From a virus, in IMG/VR virus record IMGVR_UViG_3300044799_000425, positions 1 through 23,946 of that record: DNA of 23,946 nt. One strand, given 5' to 3'. A program made the position numbers and the translations under genes. Under the pieces are notes generated by a model. The model was given only the letters and a program-made list of their open reading frames with translations, was not told the origin of the DNA and ran no database searches. Position 1 is the first letter of the stretch, and the number at the start of each line of letters is the position of its first letter. This document shows, one piece after another, positions 5,507-12,933 of this stretch.

Positions 5507-5689
5507 TCAAGACTTATGGCCTCCTTCGATTCTTTTTGCCACCATCCAGGCCTGCCGTTGCCAGAGCGCCCTTTCGGCTTTCGATAACCGCTTATCGACA
5601 GCATTCAGCATCATCTTAGTAAGGCGGGCGTCCGGCTGCCGGCGGATCACTATCCGCGGCTCGTGTTCGGTCTGTTCGGTGTGATTCAC
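5507..5689 (-). CDS. small basic helical protein
   Basis: 60 residues from a GTG that overlaps the upstream stop (GTGA); GAGGT lies upstream. The sequence is mostly helical and positively charged (IVIRRQPDARLTKMMLNAVDKRLSKAERALWQRQAW). No recognised family. A 33-base gap separates it from the next gene. Confidence 0.6.
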   Translation of the reverse strand: MNHTEQTEHEPRIVIRRQPDARLTKMMLNAVDKRLSKAERALWQRQAWMVAKRIEGGHKS

Positions 5690-5877
5690 TTGACCGTGAC
5701 CTCGATGCCGGGATTATTCAACCCGATGGTCTTCAATACCTGCCAATCCTCTGCGCCTGCTCTGAACGCGGTTGGGATAACGTCCGATCCGAAAAGGCGC
5801 TTGACTTCGTGGGCATGCGGACCCTTGAACCAGGCCATCCAGCTTCCAAGTGATTTGAAAAGGATTATTTGATTCAT
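5686..5877 (-). CDS. first gene of leftward operon, small conserved phage protein
   Basis: 63 residues. The pattern SWMAWFKGPHAHEVKRLFGSDVIPTAF, then a GAEDWQVLKTIGLNNP segment, resembles small phage proteins with W-M-A...LFGTD-x-(I/L)PT-x-F followed by V-x-x-x-I-x-x-x-NP. Function unknown. The ATG lies 21 bases beyond the first base of the -10 box of the leftward promoter, so the mRNA leader would be only about 10 bases. Only a weak ribosome-binding sequence (GTGAGACC) is visible. Confidence 0.7.
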   Translation of the reverse strand: MNQIILFKSLGSWMAWFKGPHAHEVKRLFGSDVIPTAFRAGAEDWQVLKTIGLNNPGIEVTVK

Positions 5878-5891
5878 CTTTCGGTCTCACT

Positions 5892-5923
5892 TACTATCAC
5901 GGAATCCCACCCACTTGTCAACC
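5892..5923 (-). promoter_or_regulatory. leftward promoter, copy 1 of repeated element
   Basis: On the minus strand the sequence reads GGTTGAC, 15 bases, CGTGATAGTA. It gives a perfect -35 TTGACA (5921-5916), a 17-base spacer and a -10 GATAGT (5898-5893) that matches TATAAT at four of six positions. It lies directly before the first leftward gene and shares all its fixed bases with the rightward copies at 6251 and 6551. Confidence 0.8.
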
Positions 5924-5978
5924 TGCCCTTCAAAGTATCTCCACCCTGGACGTGCTTATGTAATGTATTGAACGTAAT

Positions 5979-6035
5979 TGATATCATTCATACCTGATGA
6001 TATTATCTCTACCTGATGATATCATTCATTCATTA
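5979..6035. repeat. three tandem 19-bp repeats (iteron-like array 1)
   Basis: TGATAT begins at 5979, 5998 and 6017, exactly 19 bases apart. Units are TGATATCATTCATACCTGA, TGATATTATCTCTACCTGA and TGATATCATTCATTCATTA. Units 1 and 2 share TACCTGA at the right end; units 1 and 3 share TGATATCATTCAT. The core ATGATATCAT at 6016-6025 is palindromic. Such arrays are typical binding sites for replication initiators or repressors. Confidence 0.7.
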
Positions 6036-6080
6036 ATTCTCTCTTAATAGTATTACTTACTATAATGTATTTACTTTCTA

Positions 6081-6137
6081 AATAGTACTTACTATTCTGA
6101 ATAGTACTAATCAATATAGATAGTATATATAATATAA
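6081..6137. repeat. second 19-bp repeat array
   Basis: AATAGTACT at 6081 and at 6100 and GATAGTATA at 6119 are spaced exactly 19 bases apart. The first unit contains the dyad AATAGT-ACTT-ACTATT. A further AATAGTA lies at 6046, off the 19-base grid. The last unit runs into an A/T-only stretch that could melt easily. Confidence 0.55.
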
Positions 6138-6150
6138 TATAAGAGAAGAG

Positions 6151-6162
6151 GGGGTATACCCC
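6151..6162. promoter_or_regulatory. perfect 12-bp palindrome
   Basis: GGGGTATACCCC is a perfect inverted repeat in an otherwise AT-rich region, directly after the A/T-only stretch. It could be a dimeric repressor site. No direct evidence for function. Confidence 0.4.
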
Positions 6163-6238
6163 TAAGGGAATAGGTAGGGCCAGAGCAAGTATGTAATTAT
6201 GTCATTTTCCTATAACTTTCCCAGAAATTTTAGGGAAT

Positions 6239-6268
6239 TAAGGCCACTTAGGTTGACATGGGGCCTTA
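6239..6268. promoter_or_regulatory. dyad around the rightward -35 box
   Basis: TAAGGCC at 6239-6245 and GGCCTTA at 6262-6268 are perfect inverted arms that flank the TTGACA at 6253-6258, which lies near the centre. The placement is that of an operator that would block the rightward promoter. The dyad is absent from the leftward copy of the promoter, so any control through it would be specific to this promoter. Confidence 0.45.
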
Positions 6269-6282
6269 TAAGCGTGATAGTA
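6251..6282 (+). promoter_or_regulatory. rightward promoter, copy 2 of repeated element
   Basis: GGTTGAC, 15 bases, CGTGATAGTA. The -35 is TTGACA (6253-6258), the spacer 17 bases, the -10 GATAGT (6276-6281). Transcription would begin near 6288 and read the rightward early genes. Confidence 0.8.
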
Positions 6283-6295
6283 TATGAGCGCTGGG

Positions 6296-6448
6296 ATGAC
6301 CGGGGAAGAGGACTACTACAAAACCGATGCCGACGGTCGCTACGTCGCTGTGAGTGAAATTCTCACCCCCGGGAGTCCCGGCTTTAGAATCTACGATGAG
6401 TCAGGAAAAGATAGATCGGGATGGGGGATCTCTTTTAAAAGCCATTGA
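6296..6448 (+). CDS. small protein, first gene of rightward operon
   Basis: 50 residues (MTGEEDYYKTDADGRYVAVS...). The ATG at 6296 lies 20 bases beyond the first base of the -10 box. This matches the arrangement at the leftward operon and at 7448, and it is why this start is chosen over the in-frame ATG at 6284, which would lie upstream of the transcript. The ribosome-binding site is weak. The sequence is acidic and looks protein-like, but there is no known family. The end overlaps the next gene by about 50 bases in another frame, so one of the two may be mis-called. Confidence 0.45.
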   Translation: MTGEEDYYKTDADGRYVAVSEILTPGSPGFRIYDESGKDRSGWGISFKSH

Positions 6449-6587
6449 TAAACTACATGAAGAGGACCGCGTTTTTTACTGGAGGCTGGTCTATCAGGAT
6501 AAGAAGTTTGCGGCAGAGCTTCGGGGGCAAATCAATTACTTGCTTTCCCAGGTTGACGCCGATGGCAAAAGCCGTGATAGTAGGTAA
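6396..6587 (+). CDS. small helical protein
   Basis: 63 residues from ATG (MSQEKIDRDG...). The frame is open upstream to a GTG at 6354; neither start has a strong ribosome-binding site. The helical sequence LLKAIDKLHEEDRVFYWRLVYQDKKFAAELRGQINYLL looks genuine. The last codons (SRDSR, stop) also encode the -10 part of the next promoter copy. No family recognised. Confidence 0.55.
   Translation: MSQEKIDRDGGSLLKAIDKLHEEDRVFYWRLVYQDKKFAAELRGQINYLLSQVDADGKSRDSR
6551..6582 (+). promoter_or_regulatory. rightward promoter, copy 3 of repeated element
   Basis: GGTTGAC, 15 bases, CGTGATAGTA. The -35 is TTGACG (6553-6558), the spacer 17, the -10 GATAGT (6576-6581). It lies within the last codons of the preceding gene and would drive the methyltransferase gene with a leader of roughly 115 bases. 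Confidence 0.7.
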
Positions 6588-6620
6588 GGACCTGCTGAGC
6601 TCGGTAGGTTCTACGGTCGT

Positions 6621-6689
6621 CCGGGAGCGGCTTTTAGGTTATCGTGAAATCCCCGTCTAGACGATGGCTAATAACAAAGCCACTCCCGG
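6621..6689 (+). promoter_or_regulatory. long hairpin in methyltransferase leader
   Basis: CCGGGAGCGGCTTT (6621-6634) pairs with AAAGCCACTCCCGG (6676-6689) over 14 positions with one mismatch. Inside, ATCGT (6641-6645) pairs with ACGAT (6661-6665), and CGTCTAGACG (6654-6663) is self-complementary. The structure ends 14 bases before the start codon. There is no U-run, so it is not an ordinary terminator. It may be an RNA control element or an autoregulatory operator. Confidence 0.6.
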
Positions 6690-6703
6690 TGCGGGGTTTA
6701 AAT

Positions 6704-7438
6704 ATGAAACGATTACTTGACCTCTTTTGCGGTGCTGGCGGGGCAGCGATGGGATATCATAGGGCCGGATTCGAGGTTGTCGGCGTGGACAACCGCCCGC
6801 AGAAACGTTTTCCATTCGAATTTCATCAAGCGGATGCTCTGGAATACCTGAAGGAACATGGGCGCGAATTTGATTTCATTCATGCAAGTCCGCCGTGCCA
6901 GAGGTTTTCGGTTATGCGTCGGGGCCGATGGCAAGACCGTGAACATCCTGACTTATTGACTCCCACGCGTGAACTTCTGGGCAAGATAGGCCGGCCTTAT
7001 GTCATTGAGAACGTCGTCGGGGCTCCGCTTATTAATCCCGTCATGCTGTGCGGAACATTATTCGGCCTTAAAACTAAGGCGGGGAGCCAGTTGCGCCGTC
7101 ATCGGCTGTTTGAAATCCATCCGCCCCTTTTGGTTTTGACCCCTCAATGCCTTCATGCGACCGAGGCGTCGGTTATTGGTGTTTATGGGGGCGGGCAACA
7201 TCCGCAGCGCCGGCGGTTTCCGCTCACCATCGGGGTTTTCGGGCATTCGGGCGGAACGAGCAGGCGGGACTATCCCGACATGGATTGTTTTACGACGAAC
7301 GACCGGCGGGACGCAATGGGGATCGACTGGATGACCGGCAAGGAACTAAGCGAAGCTATCCCGCCAGCCTATACAGAATATATCGGAAAGCAGGTGCTGA
7401 TGGTTGACAATCCCCCCAAAATCCGTGATGGTAGGTAG
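6704..7438 (+). CDS. DNA (cytosine-5-)-methyltransferase
   Basis: 244 residues. The protein transfers a methyl group from S-adenosylmethionine to cytosine C5 in DNA. Visible motifs are I (LLDLFCGAGGAAMGY, 4-18), IV with the catalytic Cys65 (ASPPCQRFS), VI (IENV, 101-104), VIII (QLRRHRLFE, 129-137) and a C-terminal AIPPAYTEYIGKQVL (218-232) corresponding to IX-X. It is short, with a small target-recognition region, like the orphan methylases of many phages. No restriction enzyme gene is adjacent, so self-protection of phage DNA or regulation is likelier than a restriction-modification system. MKRLLDLF at 6704 is chosen over a GTG at 6644 because family members start close to motif I; the ribosome-binding site is weak (GCGGGG). 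Its last codons carry the next promoter copy. Confidence 0.93.
   Translation: MKRLLDLFCGAGGAAMGYHRAGFEVVGVDNRPQKRFPFEFHQADALEYLKEHGREFDFIHASPPCQRFSVMRRGRWQDREHPDLLTPTRELLGKIGRPYVIENVVGAPLINPVMLCGTLFGLKTKAGSQLRRHRLFEIHPPLLVLTPQCLHATEASVIGVYGGGQHPQRRRFPLTIGVFGHSGGTSRRDYPDMDCFTTNDRRDAMGIDWMTGKELSEAIPPAYTEYIGKQVLMVDNPPKIRDGR
7402..7433 (+). promoter_or_regulatory. rightward promoter, copy 4 of repeated element
   Basis: GGTTGAC, 15 bases, CGTGATGGTA. The -35 is TTGACA (7404-7409), the spacer 17, the -10 GATGGT (7427-7432), one base different from the other copies. It overlaps the 3' end of the methyltransferase gene and precedes the next start codon by 21 bases from the first -10 base. Confidence 0.7.
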
Positions 7439-7447
7439 AGGCTGACG

Positions 7448-7630
7448 ATGACAAGAGAAGATGTCCTGAAACGGGTTGATGCGAAGATCGCTAATGCGGA
7501 GAGCTTTTTGAAGATACGAAGAAAGTCGCCGGTTATTTCAAAGAGCATGAGGCAGCAACAACTCGCTGCATGGCGAGGAGAATTGGCTTTTTATACATCC
7601 ATCCGTTCGCTTATCGAGGAAAAGAAATGA
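7448..7630 (+). CDS. small helical protein
   Basis: 60 residues, ATG with AGAGG six bases upstream. Entirely helical, charged sequence (DVLKRVDAKIANAESFLKIRRK..., LAAWRGELAFYTSIRSLIEEK). First gene downstream of the fourth promoter copy, with a very short leader. No family recognised. Its stop overlaps the next start (ATGA). Confidence 0.68.
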   Translation: MTREDVLKRVDAKIANAESFLKIRRKSPVISKSMRQQQLAAWRGELAFYTSIRSLIEEKK

Positions 7631-7872
7631 CGACAACGATAATCAATGAACAGGCGTTCGATCAACTCTTGAGAGAATTCATTATGCCTGGGATTAAAAA
7701 GACGATCGAAGACATCACCAATGAGGAAATCGTCAAGGCAGAAGAAAGCGTCAGAAGGCGATTAAAGGAAGCTGTCGCCGGGATCGCCGTTAGGTTGGCT
7801 CGGCAGTTCGATGTTCAGAAATTCGGCCAGGAACTTCGGATCACTTTCGTCGAAGAAGACTTAAGAAAATAA
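7627..7872 (+). CDS. small helical protein
   Basis: 81 residues, ATG overlapping the preceding stop with GAGGA upstream. Helical sequence with alternating charges (IMPGIKKTIEDITNEEIVKAEESVRRRLKEAVAGIAVRLARQF), ending in a short strand segment. Possibly a coiled-coil oligomer. No family recognised. Confidence 0.7.
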   Translation: MTTTIINEQAFDQLLREFIMPGIKKTIEDITNEEIVKAEESVRRRLKEAVAGIAVRLARQFDVQKFGQELRITFVEEDLRK

Positions 7873-11182: not shown

Positions 11183-12680
11183 CGGCCTTGAACTAAACTC
11201 GCGGGAGAGGTGGAGAAACGCCTGTAAACGTCTCTTCTTTTTCATGACTGAGGTTCTATCGACCGCCTGGCAGGATAAATTCCGGAATTTCGGCGTCCTT
11301 CAGAAACATCTCTGCCGGTTTCTTGAAAATAAGAGATGCAAAAAGAAATTCATTTCGATTTTCCGGGGAAGTTTCAAGACGACCGTCCTGCTCGGCTATT
11401 GTCTTTTCCTTTTCTGTTGGGCCGTGGCTAACGGAGAGGCCCTGGCCATCTGTTACAACACGTCTTCCAAAGACAACGCGGCGATTTTCTCTGATTTTTT
11501 CCGGCAGACCCTCATGAACTGCAAACGGCTTCATTGGATTTTCCCGGAGATCCCGACGGATCCTTCCAAGTATCTTCGCTGGACGCAGAAAATGATTGAA
11601 TATAAGGCGGTGAAGTTCCACGTCGCGTCCCTCGATACCCGCCAGGTCATGCGCCATTATCAGGTCATCATAAACGACGACCTTGTGAACGATGATAATG
11701 CTTTTTCGGAGACGGAGAGGAAGTCGATTATCCGCAAATGGAAACTCCAGAAGTCAATTCTTACGAAATACAAAAAATTCAATATCGGGACGGAGATAGA
11801 TGTCGGCACGCCTTATCATCACAAGGATCTTGTTTCCCACATCATGAAGAATGTCTCGACATACGAGAAATTTATCGTCCCCTATGCGATTGAGGATGAC
11901 CGGGGGATCTTGGACATAAAAAACGAAATCGGCTTCCTGACGATGCCGGAAATGTACTGCTGGGAGGACTTCCAGGAAAAAAGAATAGAGATGGGGCCGT
12001 CCCTTTTTGCGACCCAGTATGAGATCAAGGTCATCGACGATGCCGATATGCTCTGCAAATCCGACTGGATCAAGTATTGGAACGACCTTCCTAAATGCTA
12101 TCAACGCATCATGATTGTTGATCCGGGAGGCTTGGACAAGGACGACGACCAATCGAACGGGATCTACATCGGAGACGTGGATCCGGCAGGATACATCTAC
12201 AGCCTATTCGCCGAAGAACTCGGGGCGACACCGGTTTCTCTTTTGAAACTCATGGAGAAACTCAAACAGGAATATGACCCCGACGAGATTTACATGGAAA
12301 GGGAGAAGGCGGAAATCGTCTTGGCCGGTGTGATTGATCTTCTCAATGCGAACCTTCCATGGACGCCCGTTTCTCCTTATGGCCGGGACAAGATCTCAAG
12401 AATAAAGCGGATCAAACAGTATGTTGAGACGGGGCGGTTCCTTTTGGGCAAGGGGATGACGACGCTCGAAGATAGACTTTTGAATTTTCCCGACTGTCCG
12501 AAGCATCTTTTGGACTGTGTCGCTCATTTTATCACCGTGATGAACCCGCCGAAAAAGGGAATCGACCGGACGCCCGAAGAGAAAAGGACCAGCGATTTTG
12601 AGGAAGAGATGACGAAGGCTTCCCGGTATTTTAGAGGCAGAGACGAGGAGGTTGGCCGTGAAAACGACAGGATTTATTAA
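11130..12680 (+). CDS. terminase large subunit
   Basis: 516 residues. The protein is the packaging ATPase and nuclease. Visible motifs: Walker A-like FRGSFKTT (78-85), Walker B-like QVIINDDL (178-185, with Asp where many terminases have Glu), coupling motif VGTPYHHKDL (225-234), and a C-terminal RNase H-like nuclease with Asp331 (IVDPGG), Glu390 (YMERE) and Asp462 (LLDCVAHF). The ATG at 11130 overlaps the small subunit gene by about 50 bases; a TTG at 11124 closer to GGAG is an alternative. The length is normal for phage large terminases. High confidence. Confidence 0.93.
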   Translation: METTVETNFSTLKLPSSDGLELNSRERWRNACKRLFFFMTEVLSTAWQDKFRNFGVLQKHLCRFLENKRCKKKFISIFRGSFKTTVLLGYCLFLFCWAVANGEALAICYNTSSKDNAAIFSDFFRQTLMNCKRLHWIFPEIPTDPSKYLRWTQKMIEYKAVKFHVASLDTRQVMRHYQVIINDDLVNDDNAFSETERKSIIRKWKLQKSILTKYKKFNIGTEIDVGTPYHHKDLVSHIMKNVSTYEKFIVPYAIEDDRGILDIKNEIGFLTMPEMYCWEDFQEKRIEMGPSLFATQYEIKVIDDADMLCKSDWIKYWNDLPKCYQRIMIVDPGGLDKDDDQSNGIYIGDVDPAGYIYSLFAEELGATPVSLLKLMEKLKQEYDPDEIYMEREKAEIVLAGVIDLLNANLPWTPVSPYGRDKISRIKRIKQYVETGRFLLGKGMTTLEDRLLNFPDCPKHLLDCVAHFITVMNPPKKGIDRTPEEKRTSDFEEEMTKASRYFRGRDEEVGRENDRIY

Positions 12681-12933
12681 GAGAATTCTGGGAACCAAAA
12701 AGGTGGAAAAAAACAAGGATAAAGCGGCCATGGGAGCCGAGTTGACACTCAGAATCATAGAGGTTCATGTCGTGGAAATGATGGAAATTGTCACCGGCAT
12801 GGCCGCAAATCTCGAAAAGATAGCAAGGGGGACGGATTCCCTTTCAAAGTATTTCGAGATGGAGATCAAGGCCCTGCAAAAAATGGAAGAGGTCGAATCC
12901 AAGCCTCCAACCGAAGCCGATTACAGGTATTGA
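12658..12933 (+). CDS. small helical protein between terminase and portal
   Basis: 91 residues from a GTG with GAGGAGG six bases upstream; a TTG six bases earlier is too close to that site. It overlaps the terminase 3' end by 23 bases. A basic N-terminus (TTGFIKRILGTKKVEKNKDK) is followed by a long Met/Glu-rich helix that is a probable coiled coil, ending with Pro-Thr-Glu-Ala-Asp-Tyr. Its location suggests a head-assembly helper; unidentified. Confidence 0.65.
   Translation: MKTTGFIKRILGTKKVEKNKDKAAMGAELTLRIIEVHVVEMMEIVTGMAANLEKIARGTDSLSKYFEMEIKALQKMEEVESKPPTEADYRY

Follow-up and report, generated by a model that had tools for sequence, protein, structure and literature searches.

The lambda promoters pL and pR and the early promoters of T4 are read by the host sigma70 and combine a TTGAC sequence, a 17-bp spacer and a GATA-type -10 box with divergent early transcription. 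In T4-type phages, the PeSL (promoter early stem-loop) has been described (Arbiol 2010 and Comeau 2014, as cited in PMC4503421), and cluster K mycobacteriophages carry both the SAS, a contiguous 13-bp GGGATAGGAGCCC, and the ESAS, which consists of 17-bp inverted repeats (PMC3203893, PMC12699233). Also relevant are the virion RNA polymerase of N4-like phages (PMC4496689) and the polyvalent virion proteins (Iyer 2017, PMC5512222). The word sigma is absent from the polyvalent-protein paper, and no account of a sigma factor carried in the virion turned up in the part of the literature that was searched.

The element considered here, GGTTGAC-N15-CGTGATRGTA, has exactly four matches in a 23,946-nucleotide stretch of viral DNA (the whole stretch analysed, hereafter the window), all in one early region: 5892..5923 on the minus strand and 6251..6282, 6551..6582 and 7402..7433 on the plus strand. 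These positions and strands agree with those of the initial annotation, and its description of near-invariant fixed positions around 15 free bases is likewise borne out. Any two copies share 16-17 of the 17 fixed positions, while their spacers match at 3-6 of 15, which is chance level, and the flanking 20-mers show near-chance similarity. A pattern scan of the window allowing up to three mismatches found no further match, a weight-matrix scan returned the same four sites and nothing else, and CGTGATAGTA (at most one mismatch) is restricted to the four copies; GGTTGAC itself occurs seven times, four of them in the element copies. The comparison with sequence of equal composition, which had been named as a possible refutation, gave a mean of 0.08 matches in dinucleotide shuffles, and none of the 100 shuffles reached four. 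Because the boxes are fixed while the spacers are at chance, we conclude from these alignments that the element is a recognition signal; a recent duplication is ruled out by the chance-level spacers and flanks.

Beyond the window, the pattern has eight matches in 2.9 million viral contigs, three of which are close relatives of the window phage with the match at the orthologous place, and 41 matches in about 85,000 genomes, each of them single. The matches in genomes and in unrelated viral contigs are single and at about chance level, and we set them aside. By our estimate, the number of bare-pattern matches outside the phage group is close to the expectation from base composition, and the pattern is uninformative there.

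Several other identities were considered for the element. A coding origin, in which the copies would share a C-terminal peptide, was rejected on the grounds that two copies lie upstream of genes and that third codon positions are fixed as well. Just two frames across the element are free of stop codons, GTT GAC ... CGT GAT being one of them, and with so few available, the occurrence of the two ORF-end copies in one frame needs no coding explanation. Inspection ruled out integron-like attC sites, since the element has no symmetry and the wrong core. T7-like promoters are not favoured, given a bipartite element with a free spacer, and no T7-type RNA polymerase was found in the subset of ORFs scanned from G018, a distant relative.

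All four copies have a -35/-10 geometry. The -35-type hexamer is TTGACA at three copies and TTGACG at one, and a promoter scan reported a 17-bp spacer at three copies, with sigma70-type scores of 10/12 at two and 9/12 at a third. The copy at 7402, whose -10 box is GATGGT, was unlisted by that scan, and its geometry is identical by sequence. GATAGT agrees with TATAAT at four of six positions, and bases beyond the hexamers (GG and CGT) are fixed across the window copies. A scan for terminator-like sites abutting the four copies found none.

The predicted leftward early promoter (5892..5923, minus strand) is followed by two ORFs (5507..5877, minus strand), of which the first, 5686-5877, has its ATG at 5877, at a distance of 46 nt from the first base of box 1. 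The first predicted rightward early promoter (6251..6282) precedes a small ORF of 50 codons (6296..6448, plus strand; start distance 45 nt) and a small putative ORF of 77 residues (6354..6587, plus strand); family searches with both returned no match. The second rightward copy (6551..6582) overlaps the end of ORF 6354-6587, which stops just after it, and lies upstream of a C5 cytosine DNA methyltransferase gene (6704..7438, plus strand; Pfam PF00145, 7.9e-9; PHROG 363) whose product is about 50% identical to mycobacteriophage methyltransferases. The third (7402..7433) falls within the last codons of this ORF and encodes the last residues of the methyltransferase, and thus two copies do lie inside the ends of coding genes, as had been noted. 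After it comes a small ORF (7448..7630, plus strand) with its ATG 46 nt after box 1. The AT-rich intergenic region between the divergent promoters (5924..6250) has a diverged counterpart in the close relative L006. Within it, positions 5930-6250 hold repeats such as TGATATCATTCAT and CCTGATGATAT and several ATAGTA/TACTAT words, together with a TACCCCTRAGGGAATAG element that is also present in L006, and this stretch is a possible origin or operator region.

A portal search yielded four contigs at about 90% portal identity. Three of them (L005, L006 and L015) extend to the early region, and in all three a scan for the element found it at orthologous places. L006 carries the leftward and first rightward copies; its leftward copy agrees with that of the window at 17 of 17 fixed and 12 of 15 spacer positions. 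The homologue of ORF 7448..7630 directly follows the single rightward copy in both L006 and L015. In L006, the sequence that the window has as far as its first rightward copy is followed at once by the sequence that comes after copy 7402. L015 has the same rightward junction with different DNA further upstream, and in L005 the sequence following the copy matches the window from position 7865 on. A gene block at 6283..7423 (plus strand), comprising the small ORFs and the C5 methyltransferase gene between copies 6251 and 7402, is missing from all three relatives, as judged by blastn and the junction sequences, and homology with them breaks at the motif. The block may have been gained in the lineage of the window or lost from the others. 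On the leftward side, L006 is without ORF 5686-5877, and its next leftward gene stands directly after the common promoter and leader. In L015 (region 433-460), the copy at 434 has a hairpin (CCCACTACC ... GGTAGTGGG) abutting its -35 box on the upstream side; no such hairpin was seen in the window.

A wider portal search brought in two dozen loci, and a search for recurring pairs of gapped words, made without a preset pattern, revealed arrays whose consensus is particular to each lineage. Nine copies of TTGACR-N14-TCTTATAG are present in L044/G018, six of GTTGACTT-N13-TTTGTTT in L020/G008 (five plus one cut by the contig end), six of ATTTGG-N17-GCAATRRTG in each of G005 and G006, and five of GTGACA-N14-GCGGTT in G019, the least certain array, several of whose copies have no clear downstream gene. 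The copies face outward from a divergent centre in early regions; in G018, which spans 45 kb, all nine fall between 16.5 and 26.6 kb, away from the structural genes. Weight-matrix matches are all-or-none, and in long contigs they are confined to the early region. No array was found in G009, G011, G007, G020, G021 or G026, several of which may lack the early region; single-protein searches for further early regions found nothing, and a search of 84,980 genomes with the portal yielded no prophage. As separate observations, a small protein that looks GroES-like by eye is encoded among the early rightward genes of G018 (L102:2772-3071), the annotation of Cellulophaga phage phi18:3 likewise includes GroES-like genes, and tandem-like repeated units occur at G027:2008-2352 and G029:855-1203, one set with inverted repeats.

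Taking six phages together, an ORF starting with ATG begins no more than 45 nt beyond box 2 at 28 of 35 copies, compared with 27% of random positions, and the usual distance from box 1 to the start codon is about 45 nt. These distances fit short leaders except at two G018 copies, where only 34 nt separate box 1 from the ATG and a transcript begun at a standard start site would have no leader. The geometry, the divergent early arrays, the near-constant distance to the ATG, the orthologous conservation and the lineage-specific counterparts all lend weight to the earlier proposal of a phage-specific promoter class, and we regard the elements as very probably phage-specific early promoters.

The near-identical phages G005 and G006 differ by gene blocks, and the blocks that they share at 87-99% identity have edges at or near promoter copies: homology starts at the first promoter base of one copy and stops at the end of box 2 of another, and at a third the promoter and leader are common and are followed by different genes, which by sequence reading encode different DNA methyltransferases. 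From these junctions, together with those of the close relatives, we conclude that the elements bound exchangeable gene cassettes, a role that goes beyond the promoter reading of the initial annotation. An inverted repeat, CTTACGA...TCGTAAG, recurs in the G006 early region (62-97, 46261-46297 and 46961-46997), possibly as terminators between cassettes.

A candidate for the factor that reads the elements is found in the distant relatives. A late-region protein of G018 with 1797 residues matches Pfam Sigma70_r4, and the domain alone scores 24.6 bits against a cut-off of 24.1; the giant protein of G019 is above the Sigma70_ECF cut-off. NCBIfam TIGR02937 matches the G018 protein at 8e-10 over positions 40-163 of 165, covering parts of regions 2 and 4, that of G019 at 2e-7, and those of G005 and G009 more weakly, with the full-length cut-off unreached in every giant protein. 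A sigma70/ECF-like match lies within the giant protein in six of the six related contigs that reach it, strong in G018, G030 and G019 and weak in G005, G006 and G009. The sigma model also matches archaeal control genomes at a loose limit, and weak matches count little alone; these gain support from their position in the corresponding giant protein and from the similarity between G018 and G005, whose giants have the sigma-like domain as their main common segment (27% over about 230 residues).

Among the PDB profile matches listed for the domain, most are sigma factors. An AlphaFold model gives the domain two modules at moderate confidence, with low confidence elsewhere. Foldseek matches of this model are dominated by sigma factors, none under an E value of 0.001, and the VIA Z of 8.2 over residues 94-186 (the region-4 part) is a moderate value; at the sigma2 end, the domain seems to be short. 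The C-terminal half of the giant protein resembles, over part of its length, gp123 of phage phi18:3, a virion protein identified by MS/MS, and also resembles PHROG virion structural family 22602. In phi18:3 the equivalent search found no array and gp123 has no sigma family match, a single consistent negative. A mild counter-example to the pairing of sigma domain and array is G009, whose giant protein shows a weak sigma-like domain although no array was detected.

Other features of these proteins were recorded alongside. G009 (IMG/VR 3300031566_000111) encodes at 12297-12875 a free-standing protein of the early region that is XRE-like at its start and sigma4-like at its C-terminus, the latter over the TIGR02937 cut-off when taken with its neighbouring match. 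Residues 700-760 of the G019 giant contain, by eye, a metallopeptidase-like ILSHEILHT, as in polyvalent virion proteins. An apparent covariation between the sigma4 recognition helix and box 1 (TRQRAEQ with TTGAC in G018, TGERIRQ with ATTTGG in G005) is suggestive, but it was given no weight, as it depends on three lineages and on presumed contacts.

These observations can be joined in one model. The four elements would be early promoters, each with TTGAC, a 17-bp spacer and GATRGT with conserved flanks, one firing leftward and three rightward from an AT-rich divergent centre, and each would drive an early gene or small operon whose transcript has a short leader or almost none. Their reader would be the host core RNA polymerase combined with the phage sigma2-sigma4-like domain of a giant virion-type protein, which would accompany the DNA into the cell and activate the early genes at once, with each phage lineage having a matched signal of its own. 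Because every cassette would start or end at one common short signal, recombination at the promoters could add, remove or exchange genes such as those for DNA methyltransferases while leaving expression intact. The window stops short of the giant gene, no contig from its genus that reaches this gene turned up, and we therefore infer the presence of a giant sigma-like gene in the window phage from its relatives. For the same reason, the earlier suggestion that a phage factor reads the elements has acquired a candidate in the relatives but not yet in the window itself. The model as a whole, with early promoters, cassette exchange points and a virion-borne sigma reader, seems to us nearly evenly balanced on the sequences at hand. 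We hold tentatively, as the leading reading, that a virion-carried phage sigma domain reads these promoters, and with somewhat greater reserve that this sigma redirects the host core to a phage-specific promoter, that sigma and promoter co-diverge, and that the promoters serve as exchange points.

Most lytic phages start transcription via the host primary sigma factor, and this factor alone might read the early promoters here, with the sigma-like virion domain doing something else. TTGACA with 17-bp spacing is standard, GATAGT agrees with a -10 box at four of six positions, and G011, like some other relatives, has a single canonical-looking promoter (TTGACA-N17-TATATA); the extra conserved bases could then reflect selection for host-beating strength, as in T4 early promoters, and lineages would differ with their hosts. 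Such an account sits less easily with -10 boxes that are uniform within each phage and differ between phages (GATRGT, TATAGR, TTTWWA, AATRRT and GTTRRG), several of them poor matches to TATAAT, with the fixed GG and CGT outside the hexamers, or with changes in box 1 as well (ATTTGG, GTGACA). We consider it the main rival and a real possibility, if a slightly less probable one than a virion-borne sigma reader.

The conserved bases might instead be operators of a phage repressor or activator acting on ordinary host promoters, in the manner of lambda pL/pR or of the stoperators of cluster A mycobacteriophages. One regulator would then co-control all copies, a lineage-specific consensus would resemble immunity specificity, and the XRE-like/sigma4-like protein near the G009 early region would be of the right kind. 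Yet the element is asymmetric, its conserved bases fall exactly at -35 and -10 around a free spacer, unlike a compact operator, and no repressor or integrase was recognised among the window ORFs scanned, all of which makes this explanation unlikely. Finally, the element could act on RNA, in leader, processing or translation control within polycistronic messages, as might be suggested by its placement in G008 and G018, where a stop codon immediately precedes it and a start codon follows, and by the Shine-Dalgarno-like bases after box 2. We find this very improbable, given that each of the divergent operons begins with an outermost copy that has nothing but intergenic DNA before it and that, by inspection, the two boxes show no mutual base pairing.

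If a virion-borne sigma factor does read these promoters, the phage would start transcription without an RNA polymerase of its own by bringing the specificity factor in the particle, which would be a new way of doing so. The lineages would then offer naturally diverged sigma-promoter pairs for the study of -10 recognition, and promoter-bounded cassettes would explain the movement of early genes, such as those for methyltransferases, between related phages.

Among known systems, the PeSLs, as portrayed in PMC4503421, resemble the present arrays in being repeated early promoters between small accessory genes that are tied to gene shuffling, and the cassette edges between the window and its relatives do lie at or near element copies. 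By comparison with that portrayal, the window copies are without an adjoining stem-loop terminator, they belong to another phage group, and their box 2 varies by lineage. The SAS and ESAS likewise recur in one part of the genome, close before start codons, and vary between lineages, but the window element has two boxes and a free 15-bp spacer, and its consensus is neither GGGATAGGAGCCC nor a 17-bp inverted repeat. With lambda and T4 the window phage shares TTGAC, the 17-bp spacer, the GATA-type -10 box and the divergent early layout, and it differs in having many copies with a lineage-specific box 2 and no lambda-type regulator seen. Finally, as with the N4-like virion RNA polymerase and the polyvalent proteins, a giant, multi-domain, injected virion protein would supply early transcription at entry, and the difference is that the domain in the relatives is sigma-like and would use the host core enzyme.
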